A DNA stretch of 46,496 bases, from the IMG/VR virus record IMGVR_UViG_3300036791_000426, positions 1 to 46,496 of that record. One strand, 5' to 3'. This document shows, piece by piece, positions 4,832-31,027 of the stretch. This stretch comes from a virus. Positions within the stretch are counted from its first letter, which is position 1. Every line of letters begins with the position of its first letter. The notes under the pieces are model-generated. The model was given only the letters and a program-made list of their open reading frames with translations. It made no database searches and had not been told where the DNA came from. A program made the position numbers and the translations under genes.

Positions 4832-6847
4832 ATGGATCGCGCTTACAGCGTTCTGGATATCCGGTCGGTCCAGGAGGACGCCCGGATTATCGAGGGGATC
4901 GCCTCGACCCCGACGCCCGACCGCCTGGGCGATGTCATCGACCCGATGGGCGCGGTCTTCGCCGTCCCGATGCCGCTGCTCTGGCAGCACGACGCCACCC
5001 AGCCGATTGGCGAGGTGACGTTCGCCAAAGCGACGAAGGCCGGCATCCCGTTCCGCGCCCAGCTGGCGCGCGTCGATGATCCCGGCCAGCTGCAAGACCG
5101 CCTCAACGAAGCTTGGCAGTCGATCAAGATCGGGCTGGTGAAGGCGGTCAGCATCGGCTTCCGCGCGCTGAAGTACAGCTTCATGGACAGCGGCGGGATC
5201 GAGTTTTCCGAGTGGGAATGGCTGGAGCTTTCCGCCGTCACCATCCCGGCGAACGCCGAAGCCACGATCAACCAAATCCGCTCGCTGGATCAGCAGGTTC
5301 GGGCCGCGACAGGCCGCAGCGAACTTGAGTCCAGCAGCAGACCCGCCCCGCGCCTGGGGATTCGCACTCAACCCCGAACGACGGAGGGCAAGATGCCCCG
5401 CACCAACGCCGAGCAAATCTCGGCCTTTGAGGCAACGCGCCAGGCGAAAGCGGCGCAGATGGCCACGCTGATGGACAGCGCAGGCGAGGAAGGCGCGACG
5501 CTCGATGCCGATCAGTCGGCGCAATACGACGAGCTTGAGGCCGACGTGTCTGGCATCGACCAGCACCTGACTCGGCTGCGGTCGATGCAACGGCTGATGC
5601 TGGCCCAGGCGACGCCCGTAGCAGGCGCGGCCGACCCGGACAGCGCATCCCAGGTGCGCGGCGGCCATGCCGCCGTGCCGGCGCTGGGCGGCGCGCGTAG
5701 CGTCCCGATCATCGTTCCCAAAGGGACGGCTTTCACGCGCTATGCGATGGCGCTGATGGTGGCGAAGGGCGACCTCGGCCGCGCTTCCCATCTGGCCAAG
5801 AACGAGACGAACTGGAACGCGACCACGCCCGAGGTCGCGCAGGTGCTGGAGGCGCAATACAGCGGCGTTGATCTGGAGCGCGTCATGCGCGCTGCGGTCG
5901 CCGCCGGCACCGCCACCGACCCGGCGTGGGCCGGGCCGCTGGTGCAGTACACGATCATGGCGTCGGAGTTCGTTGAACTGCTGCGGCCGGCGACCATCCT
6001 TGGCCGCGTTCCCGGCCTGCGGCGCGTCCCGTTCAACATCAAGATTCCGCGCCAGACCGCCCACTCGACGGTCGGCTGGGTCGGCGAGGGCAAGCCCAAG
6101 CCGGTCAGCGCCCTGGCGTTCGACACGATCACCCTGCAATGGGCCAAGGCCGCCGGGATCGTCGTGCTGACCGACGAGCTTGTGCGGTTCAGCAACCCCT
6201 CGGCCGAGGCGCTGGTGCAAGACGATCTGATCCAGACCATTGCCCGGTTCTTGGATCAGGGCTTCGTTGACCCAGCCATCGCAGCGGTGCCGCAAGTCTC
6301 GCCCGGATCGATCACCAATGGCGTGGCCCCCACCCCGGCGAGCGGCGCGGACTACACCGCGTTCCATGCCGATCTGGCGACGCTCATCAACCTGCTGACC
6401 GCGCAGAACCTCTCAACTGCGGGCGCGGTTCTTATCATGCCCGAGACGCAGGCCGCGCAGATCGGGATGATGCTCAACCCGCTGGGCCAGCCGGTCTATC
6501 CGAACATCACTGCGCAGGGCGGCTCGATCCTCGGCATCCCGGTTATCACCTCGCAGAACCCCGGCCTGATCGACTCGGCGGCGGTGCCGCCGGCCGGCGC
6601 AAACCGGATCATCTTGGTGAAGGCGAACGAGATACTGCTGGCCGACGACGGTCAGGTGCTGCTGGACGCCAGCCGCGAGGCGTCGCTCCAGATGGACAGC
6701 GCCCCGGATGCGCCGCCGACCGCGACCACGGTGTTCATGTCGCTTTGGCAGAACAACATGGTCGGGCTGCGCGCCGAGCGTTGGATCAATTGGGCGAAGC
6801 GCCGGACGGGCGTCGTCCAGTGGATCAACGACGCCAAATACGCCTGA
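4832..6847 (+). CDS. Fused prohead protease and HK97-type major capsid protein
   Basis: 671 aa. Residues 1-~165 are an S78-family prohead protease: His in WQHD (H53), Ser in KAVSIGF (S107) and a downstream acidic stretch EWEWLELSAV. From residue 188 an HK97-fold capsid protein begins with a helical delta-like region (188-~270), then the shell domain ending in RAERWINWAKRRTGVV. Start ATG 4832 has AGGAG at 4820-4824. An in-frame internal ATG at 5393 has its own strong site. The protease would mature the shell by removing the N-terminal scaffold. It follows terL at a 34-nt spacing. Confidence 0.9.
   Translation: MDRAYSVLDIRSVQEDARIIEGIASTPTPDRLGDVIDPMGAVFAVPMPLLWQHDATQPIGEVTFAKATKAGIPFRAQLARVDDPGQLQDRLNEAWQSIKIGLVKAVSIGFRALKYSFMDSGGIEFSEWEWLELSAVTIPANAEATINQIRSLDQQVRAATGRSELESSSRPAPRLGIRTQPRTTEGKMPRTNAEQISAFEATRQAKAAQMATLMDSAGEEGATLDADQSAQYDELEADVSGIDQHLTRLRSMQRLMLAQATPVAGAADPDSASQVRGGHAAVPALGGARSVPIIVPKGTAFTRYAMALMVAKGDLGRASHLAKNETNWNATTPEVAQVLEAQYSGVDLERVMRAAVAAGTATDPAWAGPLVQYTIMASEFVELLRPATILGRVPGLRRVPFNIKIPRQTAHSTVGWVGEGKPKPVSALAFDTITLQWAKAAGIVVLTDELVRFSNPSAEALVQDDLIQTIARFLDQGFVDPAIAAVPQVSPGSITNGVAPTPASGADYTAFHADLATLINLLTAQNLSTAGAVLIMPETQAAQIGMMLNPLGQPVYPNITAQGGSILGIPVITSQNPGLIDSAAVPPAGANRIILVKANEILLADDGQVLLDASREASLQMDSAPDAPPTATTVFMSLWQNNMVGLRAERWINWAKRRTGVVQWINDAKYA
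5383..5395 (+). promoter_or_regulatory. Internal Shine-Dalgarno and ATG for a separate capsid product
   Basis: GGAGGG at 5383-5388 is followed after 4 nt by ATG 5393, in frame with the fusion gene. Initiation here would give a 484-aa capsid protein (MPRTNAEQI...) without the protease. This would allow many capsid subunits per protease, which a virion shell needs. Confidence 0.6.
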
Positions 6848-7195: not shown

Positions 7196-8640
7196 TGCGC
7201 GTCTTCGGCCTGGAGATCACGCGCACCAAGGCCGCGCCGCGCGAGGCGTTGACCAACCCCGACAGCGCGTTCTCGCCCATCGACGGGCGCGGCGGCGGCT
7301 GGTTTCCCATCGTGCGCGAGGGCGACACGGGCGATTGGCAGCGCAACATCGTGACGACCGGGATCAGCGTCCTTCAGTCGGTCTGGGTGTTCCGCTGCAT
7401 CTCGCTCATCGCCAGCGACATCGCCAAGCTGACGCTGAGTCTGCTCCAGGCGCAGGCCACGATCTGGGTCGGCGCAACCTCGCCGGCGTTCTCGCCGGTC
7501 CTGGACAAGCCTAACCCCTATCAGAGCCGTATTCAGTTCATCGAAAGCTGGGTGATCTCCAAGCTTAGTCGCGGCAACACCTACGTTCTCAAAGAACGGG
7601 ACGCGCGCAACGTCGTCGTTGCCATGCATGTCCTGCACCCTGATCGCTGCTGGCCGCTGGTCGCGCCGGACGGGTCGGTGTTCTACCGGCTAGGCCGCGA
7701 TCTGCTGGCCGGCGTCGCTGACTTCGATCCCGGCGACCCGTCCCAGCTGTTCGCGGTGCCGGCCACGGAGGTCATCCATGACCGCTGGAATTGCCTGTTC
7801 CATCCGCTGGTCGGGCTGAGCCCGATCTTCGCCTGCGGCTTGGCGGCGATGCAGGGCGTCTCGATGCAGGCGGCGATGACCCGGCTGTTCAAGAATGGCG
7901 CGCGGCCTGGCGGCATCCTCACCGCGCCTGGAGCGATCAGCGACGACACCGCCGCCCGCCTGAAAGCCTATTGGGAGACGAACTTTACCGGCGAGAACGC
8001 CGGCCGCGTCGCGGTCCTGGGCGATGGCCTGACCTTCTCCAGCCTGATGATGACCGCAGCTGACGCCCAGGTGATCGATCAGATGAAGTTCGGCGGCCAG
8101 TCGATCTGCGCCGCCTTCGGTGTCCCGGCCTACATGGTCAACCTCGATCAATACCCGCGCGCGATCAGCATCGAGGCGCTCTATCAGCTGTATTATGGCC
8201 AGTGCCTCCAGATTCACATCGAAGGCATCGAGTCGTGCCTGGACGAAGGGCTGGCGCTGCCGGCGCAGTATGCGGTCAAGTTCGATCTGACCGGCCTGCT
8301 GCGGATGGATCAGGCGTCGCAGATCAAGGCGCTGGTCGAAGGCATCGGCGGCGGCCTCTACGCGCCCAACGAGGGGCGCGACCGGCTGAACCTGCCGCCG
8401 GTCGAGGGCGGGAACACGCCCTACCTGCAACAACAGAACTACAGCCTCGCCGCGCTGAACAAGCGCGACACGCAGGACGATCCGTTCGGCAGCGCCAGCC
8501 CGCCACCGGCTGCGCCAGCGGATCAGGCCGAGCCGTCCGCGCCTGCGGCGGGCGAGCCGGGCGGCGCGTCGGACACGGCGACCGCCGGCAAATGGTGGAT
8601 CGAGGTGCTGGCTCATGTCGATGACCTCCTCGCCGCCTGA
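7195..8640 (+). CDS. HK97-family portal protein
   Basis: 481 aa, the usual length for the family. Typical features are [17 protein letters not shown] near the N-terminus, [13 protein letters not shown], the [15 protein letters not shown] segment, [15 protein letters not shown], and FGVPAYMVN in the C-terminal half. It forms the dodecameric ring at the head vertex through which DNA passes. The last ~70 residues are Ala/Pro-rich and probably disordered. It overlaps the next gene by 26 nt. Confidence 0.9.
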
Positions 8641-9361
8641 TCCGCGCACCTTTGCCGAACAGCTGGTGCAGCGCATCCAGGCCACGCTTGCGCCGTTCGT
8701 CCGCCGTCTTGAGCGGATGGAGGAAGCGCCGCTGCCGCGCGATGGCCGCGACGGTCTGCCGGGCGTCCCTGGCAATCCGGGAGAGAAGGGCGACGCCGGC
8801 CAGGATGGGCGCGACGGGATCGACGGCGCAGCTGGACCGACCGGCGATCCTGGCCCAACTGGCGAGCGCGGCGAGATGGGGCCGCAAGGCATCGCCGGGC
8901 CGCAGGGTCTGCCGGGCGATCCTGGGCCTGCCGGCGACAAGGGCGACAAGGGCGACACCGGCCAGGACGGGCCGCAGGGCGTCCCTGGCGTCGATGGCTT
9001 CGCGCTGGATCGCTTCGACGCCGAGTTCGCGGACGACGGGCGGACGCTGATGCTGACGCTGCACACGGCCGAGCGCAGCCAGACGCTGGCAGTCCGAATG
9101 CCGACGATGATCTATCGCGGCGTCTTCCGACCTGGCAGCGCCTACGAGCGCGGCGATGCCGTCACCTGGGCCGGCTCGATGTGGCTGTGCAACGCGGCCG
9201 GCGACGACAAGCCCGGCGACGGCGGCGCAGCCTGGACGCTGGCGGTCAAGAAGGGCCGGGACGGCAAGGAAGGCGCTGCCGGCGCACCCGGCGATCCCGG
9301 ACCCAAGGGCCGCGACGGTCGCGACCTGACCCAGCTGGCGAAGGATGGAGCGCGTTACTGA
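8615..9361 (+). CDS. Collagen-like structural protein with carbohydrate-binding-like module
   Basis: 248 aa. A short helical N-terminus is followed by about 25 Gly-X-Y triplets (residues ~45-130), a central domain, then [18 protein letters not shown] with a later [12 protein letters not shown] (like chitin/carbohydrate-binding modules of phage fibres), and a second short Gly-X-Y run. Collagen-like trimers are common in tail fibres, but this gene lies between portal and head-tail connector, so it may be a head decoration or neck fibre. ATG 8615 overlaps the portal gene; ATG 8621 is also possible. Confidence 0.8.
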
Positions 9362-9663
9362 TGGGCGTCACCCTCGTTACTCTCCAGCAGGCCAAGGATC
9401 AGGTGCGGGTCTATGGGTTCGCCGACGACGACAGCCAGCTGCTGCTGAAGGCCGAGCAGGCCAGCGATATCGTCGTGGACTACATCAAGCGGCCCGATCA
9501 CGGCTGGACCGACCGCACCTGTCCCGGCCATGTCCGGTCGGCCGTCCTGCTTGTCCTGGGCAACCTCTTTGGCACGCGCGGCGATGACGCCAAGACGGCC
9601 GAGCCGCTCAGCCAGCCGGTCAAAGACTTGCTCTGGCGCGAACGCGATCCGGCGCTCGCATGA
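9361..9663 (+). CDS. Head-tail connector (gp6-like)
   Basis: 100 aa. The opening VTLQQAKDQVRVYGFADDDSQL and the later VVDYIKRP, with a helix ending in LLVLGNLFGTRGD, are typical of HK97 gp6/SPP1 gp15-type adaptor proteins. These form the ring below the portal. The ATG overlaps the upstream stop (TGATG) and the stop overlaps the next ATG (ATGA), so the connector genes are translationally coupled. Confidence 0.8.
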   Translation: MGVTLVTLQQAKDQVRVYGFADDDSQLLLKAEQASDIVVDYIKRPDHGWTDRTCPGHVRSAVLLVLGNLFGTRGDDAKTAEPLSQPVKDLLWRERDPALA

Positions 9664-16987: not shown

Positions 16988-19393
16988 ATGCCCGAAACCA
17001 TCATCGCCATCGCGCTGTGGATCGGCGCGCAGGCCGCCGAGGCGGCGTCCATCGCCGGCCTGTCCGCAGCCACCGCGACGGTCGTCGGAGATATCGTCGC
17101 GGCGACCGTCTTCATCGGCATCACGGTCGGCGGCGCGTTCGCGTTGCAGGCGTTCGCGCCGACGACGCCTAAACAAGAGTCGATGCGCGAGACGTTGCGG
17201 CAGACGATCCCGCCGCGTCGGCGCGGCTGCGGGACCGCCCGGCTGGGCGGCCCGTTCCTGCACGATCAGTCGAACGTCGGCATCCTCTATCGCGTCATCG
17301 CCTTCTGCGACCGGCCTTGCGAGCAGATCATCGCCTACCTGCTCAACCAGGATGAGGTCTTCGTCGCGGGCGGCTATGTCCAGGCGCTGAGCAACGGCGC
17401 TTACCGCAACAACCACGTTCAGATTTACACGACGCTGGGCGTCAGCGGCACCAACGCCTTCCCGCAGCTGACCGGCGAGATGCCGGCGTCATGGCCAGCC
17501 AACTGCTACGGGACCGGGATTTTCATGGGGTACATGCGGTGCATCCGCCCCGACCTGACGAACTACACCATCGTCTTCCCGCGCGGGAAACCGCAGTTCA
17601 ACCTCATCGCCAAGATCGGCCCCTCGTTCGATTGGCGCGACAGCAGCCAGAGCCAGACCAACCCGGCGACCTGGAAAGTCACCGCGAACCCGGTGGTCAA
17701 CCTCGTCCACGAACTCTGGGCCTATCGCGATTATGATTGGGCTGCGGACTTCGCGCCGTCGCTGGCGATCCTGACCGACGAGGCGAACCGCTGCGACGCG
17801 CCCATCGGCGTCCTCAACATCCTGGCCAAGATCATTCTCGATGCGCCTGTTGCGCAGAACTATGTCGCGATCCGCGCCGGGCCGGTGCCGCCGGTCGGTG
17901 TCGCCTTCTACCTCGCCGGCCAGACCTTCACCGTCCAATCGACGGCGGCCGGCGGCGTCGGCGGCGGCAGCGGCACTGGCACCTACGTCTACTTCGCGAC
18001 CGGCCAGACGCTGGCCGCGTCGGTCGCCATCGGATCGGTGGCGCGCTGGCAGTCGGACGCGACGCATCCGGTGACGGAGCCGACCTACGCCTGCGGCGGC
18101 GTCTGGAACGCCGACGAGCAGGAAAGCGATACCGTTACCCGCTTCCTGGCCAGCATGGATGGCTGGATGGCGCGGCGCGGCTCTGACGGCGCGGTGGTGA
18201 TCCGCTGCGGCCACTACTACGAGCCGACAGTCGTCATCGGCGCGGATGAGGTCATCGCCTACACTTGGCAACCGTTCAACGAGCGCGGGAAGGCGATCAA
18301 CCAGATCACGCCGTCATTCATGTCGCCGGCCCATGACTATACCCAGATCGACACGACGCCGATGCAGGACGACGCCGATGTGGGCGTCAACGGACTCAGC
18401 ACCCAAAGCTTCCAGCCTGAGATGGTGCAGTCGAACGGACAGGTCCGCCGGCTGGCCAAGCGTCGCCTCAACAAAGTGATGCAGCATGTCGAGCAGTTCA
18501 CCCTGAAGGCGTCGGGCATCCGCTGCCTTGGCGAGCGATATATCCGGGTCCAGATGCCCGGCGAGCTTGAAGACCTCGCGGATACCGTCCTGGAAATCGT
18601 GGGCGACCCCGAGATCAGCGCCAACGGGATGGCGGTCACGCTCCAGGTCGCGCCAGCTGATCCCGATATCGACAGCTGGGATGCGGCGACCGACGAAGGT
18701 CCGGGTCCGGTCGATTCTGCCGGCCCGGCTCAGTCCGGCCTGGCGCAGCCTACAATCGTCTCGATCAGCACTCTGACGGCGACCGGCGCGACCGGCGCGC
18801 GGCTGCGGATCGTCGCAGCGCCGCCGGCCAGCCTCGCGTCGCGGATCGACCTGTCGTGGTTCACCCAATGGCGGGTCCAGGGCGATCAGACCTTCGTGCA
18901 GAACCGCTATGACAACCTGCCGGCGGGCAACGTCACCCTGGATACGGGCTTCGTGAACAGCGGCGTCATCCTGGAGGTCGAGGTCGCCTACCAGACCGGC
19001 GCTGGCAGCTTGTCGCCCTGGAGTGCGATTCAGCAGACGACGGCGACGCCCGGCGGGACGCTGACCGCGACCGCGACCCAAGCCATCCCGGCCGGCGCGT
19101 TCGTCAACGTCGTCGGCACCAGCATGTCGCTCGCGACGGCGGCCAATCCGGGAGCCAAGAGCGCCAACGGCTATGTGCTGACGGCGGTCGCCAACGGCGC
19201 GCAGGGAACGGTCTATGTCAGCGGCCTGAACTCCTCGATTGCGGTCGCCGCGTCGGCCCCGACCGTCTGGCTGTCGAACACCACGCCCGGCGGCTTCGTC
19301 ACCGCCGCGCCGACCGGCGGCGCGATGGTCCAGACGCTGGGATCAGCTGTCCAAGGCCAGGGCGTCACCTTCGCTCCTGGCGTGCCTGCCTGA
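16988..19393 (+). CDS. Tail tip / central fibre protein
   Basis: 801 aa. A hydrophobic N-terminus (residues ~1-60, AIALWIGAQAAEAASIAG and VFIGITVGGAFALQAF) resembles those of host-specificity or J-like proteins. The middle is a hub-like beta region (HDQSNVGILYRVIAF; TQIDTTPMQDDAD), and the C-terminal ~230 residues look like fibronectin-type or beta repeats. It probably forms the tail tip that contacts the receptor. It directly follows the peptidase gene. Confidence 0.75.
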   Translation: MPETIIAIALWIGAQAAEAASIAGLSAATATVVGDIVAATVFIGITVGGAFALQAFAPTTPKQESMRETLRQTIPPRRRGCGTARLGGPFLHDQSNVGILYRVIAFCDRPCEQIIAYLLNQDEVFVAGGYVQALSNGAYRNNHVQIYTTLGVSGTNAFPQLTGEMPASWPANCYGTGIFMGYMRCIRPDLTNYTIVFPRGKPQFNLIAKIGPSFDWRDSSQSQTNPATWKVTANPVVNLVHELWAYRDYDWAADFAPSLAILTDEANRCDAPIGVLNILAKIILDAPVAQNYVAIRAGPVPPVGVAFYLAGQTFTVQSTAAGGVGGGSGTGTYVYFATGQTLAASVAIGSVARWQSDATHPVTEPTYACGGVWNADEQESDTVTRFLASMDGWMARRGSDGAVVIRCGHYYEPTVVIGADEVIAYTWQPFNERGKAINQITPSFMSPAHDYTQIDTTPMQDDADVGVNGLSTQSFQPEMVQSNGQVRRLAKRRLNKVMQHVEQFTLKASGIRCLGERYIRVQMPGELEDLADTVLEIVGDPEISANGMAVTLQVAPADPDIDSWDAATDEGPGPVDSAGPAQSGLAQPTIVSISTLTATGATGARLRIVAAPPASLASRIDLSWFTQWRVQGDQTFVQNRYDNLPAGNVTLDTGFVNSGVILEVEVAYQTGAGSLSPWSAIQQTTATPGGTLTATATQAIPAGAFVNVVGTSMSLATAANPGAKSANGYVLTAVANGAQGTVYVSGLNSSIAVAASAPTVWLSNTTPGGFVTAAPTGGAMVQTLGSAVQGQGVTFAPGVPA

Positions 19394-19404
19394 CGGAGAA
19401 AACC

Positions 19405-20007
19405 ATGTCCGGGCAAATCGCCGCCCTGGCCGATGCGGCCTTCCGCGACTTCGAGACGAACGGCGTTCCGGCCACCGGGCCGCACGACCCGATCAAGCTC
19501 GATATCCGAACGACGTTCGACCAGATCGACCTGACCATCAGCACCCAGACCATCTTCGCGGCGGCCGGCGTGATGTTCGCGACCCTGGCGGCGATGAACG
19601 CCGATCTGGCGCATCCGGCCGGCACGCCCGCGCTGGTCTACAACGACCCGACACCGGCCAATAATGCGGTGTATGCCAAGACCGGGGCGAGCGGGTCCGG
19701 CAGCTGGACCGCGACCGGCATCGGCTTCCCGCCGCCGAACGTCCTCGTCGCGCTGCCGTGGTACGGCAAGACTTGGTGCCAGCTGTCGCAGCTGAAGGCG
19801 CAGCTGCAAGCCAACGGCCAGCTGCAAACGGTCATCAACAATATCCCGGCGGCGGCGTCCGACCCCGCTAACGCCCAATGGACCGGCGGCGGGATCATCA
19901 CGACGCTGGGCGCGCTGGCGACGCTGATCGCCAGCCCGGCGGTGCTGAACCTGACGCCGGCCGCGCTGACGACCCTGTTCAACAACGCCCTGGCCCGGAC
20001 CTTCTAG
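19405..20007 (+). CDS. Tail fibre-associated hypothetical protein
   Basis: 200 aa, with GGAG upstream. It opens MSGQIAALADAAFRDFETNG, has a beta-type middle (GTPALVYNDPTPANNAVYAK) and a hydrophobic Ala/Leu-rich C-terminus (TTLGALATLIASPAVLNLTP). Its context between tail tip and fibre genes suggests a fibre base or chaperone role. No family is recognised. Confidence 0.6.
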   Translation: MSGQIAALADAAFRDFETNGVPATGPHDPIKLDIRTTFDQIDLTISTQTIFAAAGVMFATLAAMNADLAHPAGTPALVYNDPTPANNAVYAKTGASGSGSWTATGIGFPPPNVLVALPWYGKTWCQLSQLKAQLQANGQLQTVINNIPAAASDPANAQWTGGGIITTLGALATLIASPAVLNLTPAALTTLFNNALARTF

Positions 20008-20017
20008 GGGAACCCTC

Positions 20018-21820
20018 ATGCGGAAGTTTCTGCTCGTCACCGCGAGCGCGCTGGCGCTGGCGTCGATGGCGCACGCCCAGACGGTCCTGCAATGGGGCCT
20101 CGGGACCGGCGCGCAGCCTCAGACCGTCACCGCCACGGATCGGACAGGCGCGAACGTCCCGGCCGGGACGCTCAACTCGACCACCCATCAGTACAATCTC
20201 GGAGTCATCAACCTGAACGGCGGCGCTGGCGCGAGCGCGACGACGTTCTGGCGCGGCGACGGAACGTGGGCGACCGTCCCGGTGCCGCCGCCGACGAACC
20301 CGGTCGGTCCTCCTGGCGCGCTGCAATACGACAACGGCGGCGTGTTCGGCGGCGTCGGCGGCGCGATCTACTGCACGGCGTGCGGTTCCGGCTCCCAGCC
20401 GTTGCTGGCTTTCACCGCGCTGCCGACCAGCTTCAGCAATGAGACGCTGACGTTCAGCGGGGCGAACCTCGTCTTCAGCAACGGCGTCGCCACGCCGACC
20501 AACTGGATGAGCTTCGGCAACAATTCGACCGGCGGCCAGATCACCTTCGCCGCGACCGGATATCTCAACTGGACCAACAACTCTTACATCGGCTCGCCCA
20601 GCGCGGGCGTCATGGCGGTCGGCCTGGCCCCAGGCGCGTCGAACGGCACGCTGCAACTCGGCACGCTGCACCTCTACACGCAATGGTCGCTGACCGACGC
20701 GAGCAACAATGTCATCGCTTCGGTGGACAGCCAGACCGCCAAGTTCCTGTCGAACGTCCGCTTCGGCAACTCACCGACCAACCCGCTTTACCCGACCCCG
20801 ACGACGGCCGGGCTCAGCAGCATTTCGCAAGGCCGGTTCGGCAGCGGGCAGGGCCTGAACATCGCCGGCACCAGCAACGGCGGCGGGCTCTTTTGCGATC
20901 CGATGTCACCCTATTGCATGGGGCGGCAGGTTGACTTCTGGTCGGGCGACGACGGCTTCCAGGTGTTCGGCATCGAGAACGGCGTCTCGGACCACCACGG
21001 GCTGGAGCTTGGCCTGTCGCGCTCGTCAAACAACATGCAGGAAGTCAGCCAGCTGCTGCCGCTGGATCAGGTGTTCCCGCCCGGCGCGATCCGGCATTTC
21101 AACATCACCAACGGCGGCAGCGGGTACACGTTCGCGAACACGCACGTTGCGCTGACGCCGGTTGGCTGCTCCCGCAACCCGTCCAGCAACGTCGAGCCGG
21201 TCGTCGTCAGCGGCGCGGTGACGGGCTTGTCGGTCCTCTACGATCCCGGCGAGGGCTGCGCGTCGGTCGCGGTCAACATTACCGGCGACGGGACCGGGGC
21301 GACCGCCACCGCCTCGCTGACGGCGGGTGCGACCGACGCCTCGGTGGGGATGGTCGTCGGCGTCTCGCGCGGCTGGTATGCCGGCGGCCCGGCCTGGGTT
21401 GGCTTCGGCCAGGCCGATCTGAAGCCCAACCGGCTGCGCCTGGGCGGCGTCAACGACAGCGGGCATCCGTGGGCGACCAGCGTCATCCAGCCGACCCTGG
21501 CGCTGAGCGCGCCGCTCGAATGGGATCGGCCGAATGCCGGGGCCGAGGCAGGGTTCACCAACGACTTCAGCATCCGCGATGTCGCCGGCCTGATGACGAT
21601 CACCAAGTGGGACAACTCCGCAGCTGCCGGCGTCAGCGCGCAGTTCCTGCGGTCGGTCCCGGTGACGGTCGCCGGTCTGGCGACAGCCGATCCTAGCCCG
21701 GCGCATGGGGATCGCGCCTATGTCAACGACGCGACCAGCTGCGCCTTCGCCGCGCCGGTCAGCGGCGGCGGCACGACCGAATGCCCGGTCTACTATGACG
21801 GCGCGTGGAAGGGCGGCTGA
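20018..21820 (+). CDS. Tail fibre-like protein with N-terminal signal peptide
   Basis: 600 aa. The first 20 residues (RK, then a Leu/Ala core, then MAHA before Gln) form a clear Sec signal peptide with an AxA cleavage site. The rest is beta-rich, Gly/Ser/Thr-rich fibre sequence (TFWRGDGTWATVPVP, ALQYDNGGVFGG). It ends in ADPSPAHGDRAYVNDATSC and CPVYYDGAWKGG, a C-terminal cap common in alphaproteobacterial phage fibres. A secretion signal on a virion protein is unusual because assembly is cytoplasmic. The gene abuts the holin-like gene. Confidence 0.75.
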   Translation: MRKFLLVTASALALASMAHAQTVLQWGLGTGAQPQTVTATDRTGANVPAGTLNSTTHQYNLGVINLNGGAGASATTFWRGDGTWATVPVPPPTNPVGPPGALQYDNGGVFGGVGGAIYCTACGSGSQPLLAFTALPTSFSNETLTFSGANLVFSNGVATPTNWMSFGNNSTGGQITFAATGYLNWTNNSYIGSPSAGVMAVGLAPGASNGTLQLGTLHLYTQWSLTDASNNVIASVDSQTAKFLSNVRFGNSPTNPLYPTPTTAGLSSISQGRFGSGQGLNIAGTSNGGGLFCDPMSPYCMGRQVDFWSGDDGFQVFGIENGVSDHHGLELGLSRSSNNMQEVSQLLPLDQVFPPGAIRHFNITNGGSGYTFANTHVALTPVGCSRNPSSNVEPVVVSGAVTGLSVLYDPGEGCASVAVNITGDGTGATATASLTAGATDASVGMVVGVSRGWYAGGPAWVGFGQADLKPNRLRLGGVNDSGHPWATSVIQPTLALSAPLEWDRPNAGAEAGFTNDFSIRDVAGLMTITKWDNSAAAGVSAQFLRSVPVTVAGLATADPSPAHGDRAYVNDATSCAFAAPVSGGGTTECPVYYDGAWKGG

Positions 21821-22023
21821 TGCGCCGGCTGCTGACCGAGAAGCTGATCTTCGCGGCGCTGGTGATGGGCGGCTATGTCGTCGTGCTGATCGTTGCGCTG
21901 ATCGAGGAGCCGCCGCCCGCGTCGCTCGACCTCATCAAATCCGTGCTGCTGGTGATTGGCCCCATCGTCGGCATGGTCGCGCATTCGATCCTCCAGGATC
22001 GCGGGCCGAGGGAGCCGCCATGA
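21820..22023 (+). CDS. Holin-like small membrane protein
   Basis: 67 aa with two predicted membrane helices (about residues 10-29 and 38-60), a charged N-terminus (MRRLLTEK) and a charged C-terminus. It overlaps the fibre stop (TGATG), and the lysozyme ATG overlaps its own stop. Its position next to the lysozyme supports a class II-type holin; the fold is not diagnostic. Confidence 0.65.
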   Translation: MRRLLTEKLIFAALVMGGYVVVLIVALIEEPPPASLDLIKSVLLVIGPIVGMVAHSILQDRGPREPP

Positions 22024-22463
22024 CAACCGCCTATCTCATCTCCGACCTGAAGCGCGACGAAGGGCTGCGGTCGGAGGCTTACCCGGACCCGCTTAGCGGC
22101 GGCGATCCCTGGACGATTGGCTACGGCCACACCGGGCCGGAAGTCCATGCCGGGCTGATCTGGAACCAGGATCAGTGCGAGGACGCGCTGGCCGAGGATA
22201 TCGTCACCCATGAGGAAGGGCTCGATACCGAGATTCCCTGGTGGCGCGGCCTCGATGATCTGCGCCAGGACGTGCTTTCCAACATGGCGTTCAACCTCGG
22301 CGTCGGCGGCCTGTTGAACTTCCAGAACATGCTGGCGGCGACCCAGGCCGGCGACTACACGACCGCTGCCGCCGAAATGCTCGATAGTCAGTGGGCCAAT
22401 CAAGTCGGCCAGCGCGCCGTCCGGCTGTCCGACCAGATGGCGACCGGCGAACATCAGGAATAG
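22020..22463 (+). CDS. Endolysin, GH24 (T4-type) lysozyme
   Basis: 147 aa. The catalytic triad is visible in RDEGLRSEAYPDP and WTIGYGH: E14, D23 and T32, matching E11-D20-T26 of T4 lysozyme. SNMAFNLGVGGLLNFQNML matches the C-terminal lobe. It hydrolyses the glycan chains of peptidoglycan at lysis. No signal peptide or N-terminal anchor is seen, so export depends on the holin. Overlaps the holin stop by ATGA. Confidence 0.9.
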   Translation: MTTAYLISDLKRDEGLRSEAYPDPLSGGDPWTIGYGHTGPEVHAGLIWNQDQCEDALAEDIVTHEEGLDTEIPWWRGLDDLRQDVLSNMAFNLGVGGLLNFQNMLAATQAGDYTTAAAEMLDSQWANQVGQRAVRLSDQMATGEHQE

Positions 22464-22857: not shown

Positions 22858-24330
22858 ATGACTGAGCAGGTTGTCGCGGTCGAGGTCGATCCGACCGACG
22901 TTGAGCTTGTCGTCGTCACCGACCCGGACATCGCCCAGCATGTCGTCGCGGTCGATGTCGAGGTCACGCAGGGATCGCCGGGCGCGCAGGGTCCGCAAGG
23001 GCCGGTTGGGCCGCAGGGCGTGCAAGGCATTCAGGGGCCGGTCGGCCCGGTCAGCAGCGTCGGCCTGGCGCTGCCTGCCGAGTTCACCGTCGCCGGCTCG
23101 CCCGTCACCGGGGCCGGGACGCTCGCCGGCTCCTGGGCGTCGCAGACCGCCGCCAAGGTGCTGGCCTCGCCCAGCGGCGCAACCGGCCCGCCGGGCTTCC
23201 GGGCGCTGATCGCCAGCGATATCCCGGCGCTGTCCTACCTGCCGCTGACCGGCGGCCCGCTGACCGGCCCGCTGTCGGTTCCCAGCGTCACCGTCGGCCC
23301 GACCTTCACGCCCCCAGCTGGGGCGATGGCCGCCGTCTATAACAACGCTGCGGCGGCTAACCTTTACCTCATCGGCGACGGACAGCCGGTCAACTTCCTC
23401 GACACAAGATATACGTCGGACACCTCGCCGCCGGTCTTCTCGTTCGTCAAATATCGCGGCAGCTACGCCGCGCCCGCAGCGGTGGTTACTGGCGACAATA
23501 CCGGTTTCATGAACTTTGACGGCTGGGATGGATCAGCCGTCCAGGTGCTTAGCCGCATCCTCGGCGCTGCCCAGACCTTCAACGCTGCCGGCGATATCTC
23601 GGGCAGCTTGGCTTTCCAGACGCGGACGACCGGGCCGGGCGGCGTGCTGACGACCGCGCTGAGCATCGATCAGGCGCAGATCGTCACGCTCGCGCAGCTG
23701 CCGGTCTGGCCGAGCGTCGTCTCGAACCGCTTCTGGGCGGGGCCGGTCGGCGGACCTGGGCCGCCCGCCATGCGCAAGCTGGACGCCAGCGATCTCCCGC
23801 TCCCGTCGCCGACGACGCTGGGCGGCATTCAGTCGGTCGCCGCCGTCGCCAGCAATTGGGTCAGGTCGATCAGCAACGCGGGCGCGCCTGTGCTCTCGCG
23901 TCCCGCCGCCGCCGACCTGTCGGACTACGCCACCGGCCAGCCCTGGACGCCGACGCTTACCTGCGCGACGCCCGGCGATCTGTCGGTCGCCTACACCACC
24001 CAAACCGGCCGCTGGGTGAAGATCGGCACGACCTACTTCTGGTTCCTGTCGCTCAGCTGCACGCCGACCTACACCACGGCGGCCGGGACGCTGCTGATTA
24101 GCGGCTTCCCCGCGACCCCATCTTTCGGCGGCCAGCAGGGCCTGCTGTCGCAGCTGGCCTCGCCGCCCGCATGGCCGTCTGGCGTCCTGCAAGCGGTCCT
24201 GCTCTGGACCGGCAATCAGCTGGAGATCGGCGGTCTGAAGCCGGGATCGAACACCATCGTCTGGCCGATCACGACGTTCACCTCCGGGCAAAATCTCATC
24301 ATCGCCGGCCAAGGCATCCTGTTTGCCTGA
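22858..24330 (+). CDS. Collagen-containing tail fibre
   Basis: 490 aa from ATG 22858. An acidic beta N-terminus (VVAVEVDPTDVELVVV) is followed by a short Gly-X-Y run (residues ~41-64, GSPGAQGPQGPVGPQG). Then come PLTGGPLTGPLSVPS, a knob-like repeat segment, and a C-terminal beta domain (WTPTLTCATPG; GRWVKIGTTYFWFLSLS) common in phage receptor-binding fibres. It ends the rightward late block before the convergent minus-strand genes. Confidence 0.75.
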   Translation: MTEQVVAVEVDPTDVELVVVTDPDIAQHVVAVDVEVTQGSPGAQGPQGPVGPQGVQGIQGPVGPVSSVGLALPAEFTVAGSPVTGAGTLAGSWASQTAAKVLASPSGATGPPGFRALIASDIPALSYLPLTGGPLTGPLSVPSVTVGPTFTPPAGAMAAVYNNAAAANLYLIGDGQPVNFLDTRYTSDTSPPVFSFVKYRGSYAAPAAVVTGDNTGFMNFDGWDGSAVQVLSRILGAAQTFNAAGDISGSLAFQTRTTGPGGVLTTALSIDQAQIVTLAQLPVWPSVVSNRFWAGPVGGPGPPAMRKLDASDLPLPSPTTLGGIQSVAAVASNWVRSISNAGAPVLSRPAAADLSDYATGQPWTPTLTCATPGDLSVAYTTQTGRWVKIGTTYFWFLSLSCTPTYTTAAGTLLISGFPATPSFGGQQGLLSQLASPPAWPSGVLQAVLLWTGNQLEIGGLKPGSNTIVWPITTFTSGQNLIIAGQGILFA

Positions 24331-29737: not shown

Positions 29738-31027
29738 ATGGCCAAGCACGTTAAAGACAAGCTCAACCCCAAGACCCTCCAGCGCGATATCAACCGGCTG
29801 CGGGCGCTCAACGAAAGCCAGACCTTTGGCGATGGCGGCGGCCTCTATCTGGTCGTGACGCCAGCCGGCAACGCGCGCTTCCAGCATCGCTTCCGCTGGA
29901 TGGGCCGCGCCGCCGAACGCTGGTTGCCGGGCGAGTTTCCCGACACGATTGGGCTGGCCGAAGCCCGCGCCATGCGCGACGCCGACAAGCGGCTGCTGCG
30001 GGACAACGTGAACCCGATCCAGGCGGCGAAGCTGCGGATCACCGCCGCCAACGGCGTCCCGACCTTTGCCGACTACGCCAAGGCGCATGTCGCCTTCCTG
30101 GCCCCGCCGCGCCCCAGCTGCCGCGCGGTCTGGCTGCGCCAGATGACCGGCGACGACACCGATGGGCTGACGGTCGGCAAGCTGGCCGGGATGCCCATCG
30201 ACAGCATCGGGCTGGACGACGTTAAGGCGATCATCGCGCCGCTCTGGTTCAGCAACCCGGCGACCGCCAAGACGCTGGCCGGTCGCATCCGCCGGATCAT
30301 CGACCATCGGATGGTCAACGCCGGCCAGGACGACCGCGCCAACCCTGCCAACTTCAAGCGGCTGGAGCGGGCCATCGGCCGCAAGTTCGAGTCGCGCGCC
30401 AAGCCGCGCGCCGCGCTGCCGTGGGAGCAAATCCCGGCGTTCCTGGCCAAGCTGGCGGATCGCCCGCAAATGTCGGCCCGCGCGCTGGAGATGGTCATCG
30501 CGACCGGATGCCGGGCGCAGGAGATCACCCACGCGCGCTGGAGCGAGGTCGATTGGAAGGCCCGGACGCTGACCATCCCGCCGACCCGGATGAAGACGCA
30601 GCACGACGAGGACGGCGAGGCGCATGTCGTCCCGCTCAGCCTGCACATGGTCATGATCCTGCGCCGGGCGGTGCCGCCGGTCGGCTATCGGCCCGACGAC
30701 CTGATCTTCCCCAATGGTCGCCGCAACCCCTACGACCCGAAGGAACTGCTGGATCACGTCAAGGCGCTGGCCGGCGACAAGCCGACGACGCACGGCTTCA
30801 GGTCGGCGCTTTGCGATTGGGGAACGGACGGGACGCATCGCGCGCGGCCGGAGTTTGATCGCGATCTGATGAACGTCTGCATCGCCCATGAGATTGGCGA
30901 CGAGGTGAGCCAAGTCTACCTGCGGACCCGCTGGCTGGGCCGCCGCCGGATCGTCATGCGGGAGTGGTCGCGGTTCTGCCTGACGCCGCCCAGCGCGGTC
31001 GTCCTGGCCTTCCGCAAGGCCGCCTGA
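29738..31027 (+). CDS. int: Tyrosine integrase (P4-like)
   Basis: 429 aa. The N-terminal DUF4102-like arm-binding domain (residues ~25-100: FGDGGGLYLVVTPAG, WLPGEFPDTIGLAEARAMR) precedes a core-binding domain and the catalytic domain. Catalytic residues visible: R259 (ATGCRAQE), K286, H352 and R355 (HGFR), H384 (AHEIG), Y394 (QVYLR). It integrates phage DNA into the host chromosome. The gene runs opposite to both flanking minus-strand operons and ends at a strong hairpin. Its presence makes the phage temperate. Confidence 0.92.
   Translation: MAKHVKDKLNPKTLQRDINRLRALNESQTFGDGGGLYLVVTPAGNARFQHRFRWMGRAAERWLPGEFPDTIGLAEARAMRDADKRLLRDNVNPIQAAKLRITAANGVPTFADYAKAHVAFLAPPRPSCRAVWLRQMTGDDTDGLTVGKLAGMPIDSIGLDDVKAIIAPLWFSNPATAKTLAGRIRRIIDHRMVNAGQDDRANPANFKRLERAIGRKFESRAKPRAALPWEQIPAFLAKLADRPQMSARALEMVIATGCRAQEITHARWSEVDWKARTLTIPPTRMKTQHDEDGEAHVVPLSLHMVMILRRAVPPVGYRPDDLIFPNGRRNPYDPKELLDHVKALAGDKPTTHGFRSALCDWGTDGTHRARPEFDRDLMNVCIAHEIGDEVSQVYLRTRWLGRRRIVMREWSRFCLTPPSAVVLAFRKAA

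Follow-up and report, generated by a model that had tools for sequence, protein, structure and literature searches.

Genomic context of the fibre gene

The window analysed here is the whole 46,496-nucleotide stretch of viral DNA deposited as IMG/VR record IMGVR_UViG_3300036791_000426. Its tail and lysis genes follow the order tape measure, distal-tail-like protein, tail-tip protein, 200-residue protein, fibre with a predicted signal peptide, holin-like protein, lysozyme, phrog_1084 small protein and collagen-type fibre. The fibre ORF spans positions 20018–21820 on the plus strand, as do the neighbours listed next, and encodes 600 residues plus a stop codon (21818–21820) from an ATG start. It occupies a tail-module position 3' of the J/H-like tail-tip gene (16988–19393; assigned from family matches and relatives), from which it is separated by the gene for the 200-residue protein (19405–20007), whose stop lies 10 bases upstream of the fibre gene. 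Downstream, the fibre stop codon shares one base with the ATG of a 67-residue protein with two hydrophobic segments (21820–22023), which had no family match and was termed holin-like by position. This is followed by a phage lysozyme, i.e. an endolysin without a signal peptide (22020–22463; Pfam PF00959), and by a second fibre-like protein, identified by family matches, which carries a collagen repeat and likewise lacks a signal peptide (22858–24330). The fibre gene is thus next to lysis genes, as originally predicted.

An integrase gene at 29738–31027 suggests a temperate phage. Relatives of the tail-tip protein were Rhizobium and Sinorhizobium phages in 10 of 13 records, which makes an alphaproteobacterial, and so Gram-negative, host probable on sequence grounds. 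None of the tail-tip relatives sought in IMG/VR were confirmed.

The mature fibre-like protein (residues 21–600; 20078–21817) contains the motif FWRGDGTW at residues 77–84 (20246–20269), a repeat common to many phage fibres. The predicted length of 600 residues was correct, and the label "fibre-like" was retained on the basis of this repeat and of the gene position. The repeat is all that the protein shares with fibres, and it fits no curated family of fibres or receptor-binding proteins: searches of Pfam, PHROG, NCBIfam and the PDB returned no matches, and a single-sequence AlphaFold2 prediction gave an unusable model (pLDDT 32.7). In IMG/VR, no stretch matched residues 121–600, and 15 stretches retrieved with residues 1–75, comprising the signal and the N-terminal module, yielded no confirmed relative. 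In searches without a positive control, no counterpart was found in named phages or among 385 genomes from the class to which G001 belongs. Similarity to relatives is confined to the FWRGDGTW region, and the mature start, QTVLQWGLGTGAQ, belongs to neither of the two signal-bearing families described below, so that the protein is a singleton so far.

The predicted signal peptide

The N-terminus of the translated ORF reads MRKFLLVTASALALASMAHA followed by QTVLQ. Residues 1–20 (20018–20077) comprise R2 and K3, a hydrophobic core free of charge, and A-H-A ahead of Gln21, and thus combine the positive n-region, hydrophobic core and small residues at −3 and −1 of a Sec/signal peptidase I (SPase I) substrate with a predicted cut between A20 and Q21. 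The original prediction had described this stretch as a textbook signal peptide ending in AHA before Gln and had proposed signal-peptide prediction as a check. The description holds, and our rule-based detector called a signal with a score of 4.21 and a cut at residue 20. The detector is our own rule set and recognised four of five known E. coli signals. Of the window's long ORFs that plausibly encode proteins, the fibre was the only one that it called, and when slid through the other listed window proteins it fired at 30 of 4914 positions. Since 6.1% of composition-preserving shuffles of the fibre N-terminus also passed, the single-sequence call is suggestive only, and the main weight comes from relatives.

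Two other export routes were considered and rejected. Against a lipoprotein stands Gln at +1, the first cysteine being residue 119, and against the Tat route the N-terminal MRKF, which has no twin arginine; without either feature the sequence reads as Sec/SPase I. Superinfection-exclusion proteins of the Llp/Cor type are lipoproteins with a lipobox Cys at +1. Taken together, the signal peptide of the window fibre is very probably functional.

It is most improbable that the signal-like stretch arose by chance or is never made, the true start lying downstream. Only one sequence of the window lineage displays it, which leaves room for such an error, but the ATG is directly preceded by a Shine–Dalgarno-like AGGGGA and closely spaced from the upstream gene, and signal-bearing fibres recur elsewhere.

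Signal-bearing fibres in other phages

Among IMG/VR ORFs with FWRGDGTW and a complete 5' end, the detector found a signal in 13 of 139, a count in which L104 looks false and from which L018 and L038 were missed. When restricted to ORFs of at least 250 residues, signals were present in 13/131 with the motif versus 12/460 others (Fisher p = 8e-4), and the latter 12 include at least two further signal-bearing fibres (L074 and L192).

Two families of such fibres were delineated. The first begins its mature part with QTYPSPTFNSLTL (QTYPSPTF), and a scan with patterns located entirely within the mature part found members in 9 of 11 loci. A signal precedes the mature part in every one of the nine; the detector called eight of them, and L258 has MKKILLALLAVPAIVFG followed by QT. 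In the second family, defined by QWQTPNHSVPIG (QWQ), a signal was present in 14/14 loci, a figure that is biased in that one of the two scan patterns crosses the cleavage site and L244 and L245 are the query itself. The aligned cleavage positions (12 and 13 rows) have A or V at −3 and A or G at −1 in 25/25. Mean identity is 37% and 40% within the signals of the two families, and 81% and 84% over the first 16 mature columns. In both, strong conservation sets in at the +1 Gln, as expected if cleavage makes the functional N-terminus. These alignments bear on the idea that the hydrophobic N-terminus is an uncleaved anchor in the virion or the membrane. Such an anchor would be compatible with a single-sequence prediction that 6.1% of shuffles also pass, but SPase I positions kept in every row while the hydrophobic part drifts, the onset of conservation at +1 and the close cysteine pairs described below all argue against it, and we consider it quite improbable.

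In phages, both families occur in a baseplate-to-lysis gene order, and exported-type fibres adjoin endolysins or O-acetyltransferases in some loci. The QWQ-module alignment A4, searched without a positive control against the 385 genomes from G001's class, had no match; the QTYPSPTF alignment A5 matched two of 397 genomes from G001's order, one being G001 itself. None of the named-phage fibres examined had a convincing signal except that of vB_Sb_QDWS (see below); weak detector calls on the adaptors of PdC23 and Chronis (3.09) look false. Pectate-lyase-like beta-helices occur in relatives from other phages: among nine signal-bearing relatives scanned for domains, the L074 protein (7776–9515) passes PF12708, while matches to PF12708 or PF13229 in the proteins of vB_Sb_QDWS and L226 stay under the cut-off.

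In bacterial genome contigs, 11 of 22 motif ORFs passed the detector and several of the loci look chromosomal. Together with the integrase, this would suit a host-like secreted or surface adhesin that was acquired by a temperate phage and is expressed from the prophage in lysogenic conversion. Against such an adhesin, the 10-base gap on the 5' side and the stop/start overlap on the 3' side of the window gene leave no space for a separate promoter, and the two other signal-bearing families lie in the phage baseplate-to-lysis order. We therefore hold this origin to be improbable.

Several features of these loci were recorded in passing. Phages represented by L247, L252, L253, L245 and L074 have two to three signal-bearing fibre-like genes each, often after a short signal-free protein. 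In L258, L260, L264, L226 and L233, minus-strand acyltransferase-like genes lie at or near the 3' side of the signal-bearing spikes, an arrangement that recalls serotype-converting phages; an O-acetyltransferase family is matched in L258, the L233 gene is annotated, and the acyltransferase and glycosyltransferase names for L226, L260–L262 and L264 were given by eye. Signal-bearing FWRGDGTW proteins in bacterial genome contigs are those of L210, L214, L216, L217, L223 and L225, and the neighbours of L214 and L225 look chromosomal.

A cultivated example, Shewanella phage vB_Sb_QDWS

A protein of Shewanella phage vB_Sb_QDWS shares 62% identity with the C-terminal half of the signal-bearing fibre from L226, a locus in a Rhizobiales genome. 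Gene 23 of this phage was annotated from an internal ATG, and its frame is open further 5'. The first ATG of this frame yields MIKKILLTALLVPAMALA followed by QTYPSPTF, so that the likely true start lies some 800 bases before the annotated one (L233 8461–10530; OK094664). Gene 24, which overlaps the corrected ORF on the opposite strand, is probably spurious. The fibre gene has baseplate genes and an adaptor upstream, and an O-acyltransferase and an endolysin downstream. It resembles the window fibre in its signal, here ending in ALA before QT, in its slot before the endolysin and in its eight cysteines arranged as four close pairs. It differs in its mature N-terminal module and in a C-terminus with weak pectate-lyase-like matches, which are below curated cut-offs. 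Entries OK094664 and OP650936 are 47902 bases each and 100% identical over a 76-residue query, and thus seem to be the same phage deposited under two hosts, Shewanella baltica and a Tenericutes bacterium.

Paired cysteines in signal-bearing fibres

The window fibre contains eight cysteines, an even number arranged as four close pairs with short gaps within pairs and long gaps between them: 119/122 (20372–20383), 293/300 (20894–20917), 384/414 (21167–21259) and 575/589 (21740–21784), all on the plus strand, the last within a C-terminal stretch that resembles the end of the L253 fibre. Under random placement, summed pair gaps this small have a probability of 0.0037. Close pairs of this kind are what periplasmic disulfide-forming proteins should look like.

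For a broader comparison, 39 signal-bearing fibres were assembled on the strength of a detector call, of belonging to a family or of a neighbouring position, after manual removal of near-duplicates. Three of these 39 run off their contig and were left out of the pairing tests. Four of the 39 have no or one cysteine. Even counts were found in 24/33 signal-bearing versus 37/88 non-signal fibres. Of the 22 complete signal-bearing fibres that have four or more cysteines in even number, 21 had smaller within-pair than between-pair gaps; the null expectation was 10.4, and none of 2000 simulations reached the observed value. Signal-free fibres with the same repeat had such pairing in 8/18 (null 8.4), and the fused, signal-free fibres related via the anchor domain (see below) in 10/28 (null 13.0). 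With one protein per cluster, pairing was observed in 17 of 18 signal-bearing fibres (null 8.5), under a coverage rule that replaced clustering by 100-residue links and was chosen after the first result. That earlier clustering was rejected, as GGTGA repeats had merged families into five clusters, four of them testable (4/4, P = 0.053). Pairing thus separates exported-type from non-exported fibres without use of the N-terminus.

Cysteine density was also evaluated. It separates within the motif set (p = 1e-4), and strongly against 122 non-signal fibres, but density reaches 0.87 Cys per 100 residues in the fused fibres of the window's own lineage, which are not exported, and the portal and tail-tip proteins of the window are about as cysteine-rich as the fibre. 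Density was accordingly dropped as proof of export, and the argument rests on pairing. With the conserved cleavage sites, these pairs uphold the export part of the original prediction, and the window fibre is likely to be exported and disulfide-bonded.

A stand-alone anchor upstream of the fibre

Residues 5–102 of the 200-residue protein encoded at 19405–20007, which has no signal peptide, are similar to the domain at the N-terminus of one-piece tail fibres. Identity to residues 1–96 of p023 from Rhizobium phage 16-3, an 803-residue fibre encoded 3' of the tail-tip gene, is 48%, and comparable fibres of other phages also match at their N-termini. The one-piece fibres of 16-3 (p023), phiLM21, RHph_N28_2 and Nostoc phage Nsp-JY10 share the place of the window genes 3' of the J/H tail-tip gene, and their N-terminal ~100 residues are homologous to the window anchor. 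Each of them is one long polypeptide without a signal, whereas the window has separate genes for the anchor and for the signal-bearing fibre, which itself lacks a virion-anchor domain.

A search of IMG/VR for the anchor domain retained 80 relatives, 74 of them distinct. It forms one polypeptide with a long fibre in 70 of the 74 (69 by script, plus L303); of the remainder, L336 and L353 are frame-broken, L335 is separated by a stop codon and L356 is truncated at the contig end. No signal precedes the anchor domain in any of the 74, and within this lineage a stand-alone anchor followed by a signal-bearing fibre is cleanly seen in the window alone.

Parallel arrangements recur elsewhere, with signal-free proteins ahead of fibres of the other two families. 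A "FANN" adaptor is encoded upstream of 8 of 13 QTYPSPTF fibres, and its first 88–104 residues match the starts of tail fibres from E. coli phages, e.g. the 777-residue fibre of Bas98. Directly 5' of most QWQ fibres lies a protein of ~205 residues, for which no match was found in named phages.

Proposed assembly of a two-piece fibre

We propose that the product of the window fibre gene is the distal portion of a two-piece tail fibre and faces the receptor. The anchor would stay in the cytoplasm and be built onto the tail, while the fibre would pass through Sec, lose its signal by cleavage after Ala20 and fold in the periplasm, with disulfides forming there within the four close cysteine pairs. 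Once holin and lysozyme open the envelope, the mature fibre would meet and join the anchor-bearing virions. We put this split-fibre model as a whole at a probability of roughly 0.45, and hold the joining of the exported fibre to the virion to be equally probable, just short of an even chance. The export half is well supported by the sequence data, and we infer the meeting at lysis. For the window fibre itself, actual export, disulfides, joining to virions and receptor binding are likewise what we infer from sequence.

Three roles had originally been offered for the exported protein. A depolymerase found no support, as the fibre has no enzyme domain, Pfam hit or PDB match. Joining of virions fits best, given the fibre slot and the adjoining stand-alone anchor. 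Receptor blocking is the main rival: the fibre would be exported and disulfide-bonded but never join virions, and would shield the receptor against superinfection or, in a variant, coat debris after lysis and so keep progeny from being trapped. The conserved cleavage sites and cysteine pairs would serve this role equally, and lambda Lom, an exported protein encoded between tail genes according to PMC12309495, sets a precedent. Yet the window gene occupies the tail-fibre slot of a late operon rather than that of an isolated moron, the adjoining anchor would be left without a fibre, and some QTYPSPTF phages already have an O-acetyl- or acyltransferase, a usual superinfection shield, beside the fibre. 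Receptor blocking and debris coating are, jointly, less likely than joining of virions.

Applied more widely, the two-piece scheme suggests, still more tentatively, that several tailed-phage lineages may build fibres in two compartments, from a cytoplasmic anchor and a Sec-exported, periplasm-folded fibre, and complete them at lysis. To our knowledge, tailed-phage morphogenesis is taught as wholly cytoplasmic. If the proposal is true, the last assembly step of these phages takes place outside, binding proteins stabilised by disulfides would be open to them, and it would become clear why some genes are truncated or labelled hypothetical in annotations.

Relation to known systems

The pIII protein of filamentous phages is a receptor-binding protein with a signal peptide and disulfides, as proposed for the window fibre, but filamentous phages assemble at the membrane and tailed phages in the cytoplasm. 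The P22 tailspike joins heads after lysis in extracts, which shows that addition of a spike to a complete particle is possible outside the living cell; in contrast to the window fibre, it has no signal peptide and folds in the cytoplasm. Among tailed-phage proteins, the T4 antiholin RI reportedly has a Sec signal. The same holds for the outer-membrane barrel Lom of lambda and for the endolysin Lys44 of Oenococcus phage fOg44, according to PMC12309495 and PMC6116005, respectively. All three share the Sec signal with the window fibre, and none is a fibre. A literature search of titles and abstracts, mainly of open-access papers, returned no description of tail fibres with export signals. Passages of PMC3556154, PMC12309495, PMC6102473, PMC8951688, PMC6116005, PMC12923769, PMC10883804 and PMC4640515 deal with Lom, endolysins, spanins or other matters, not with exported fibres.

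Other features of the window

Three further ORFs of the window each combine two kinds of domain. The ORF at 8615–9361, directly 3' of the portal gene, is an odd fusion: its first half matches families of collagen-like tail fibres, and the part after that matches C-terminal stretches of portal proteins. A 671-residue ORF at 4832–6847 matches both major capsid and head maturation protease families and thus represents a fused protease–capsid gene. Finally, a single ORF at 36–1517 combines a ParB-like domain with a DNA methyltransferase.
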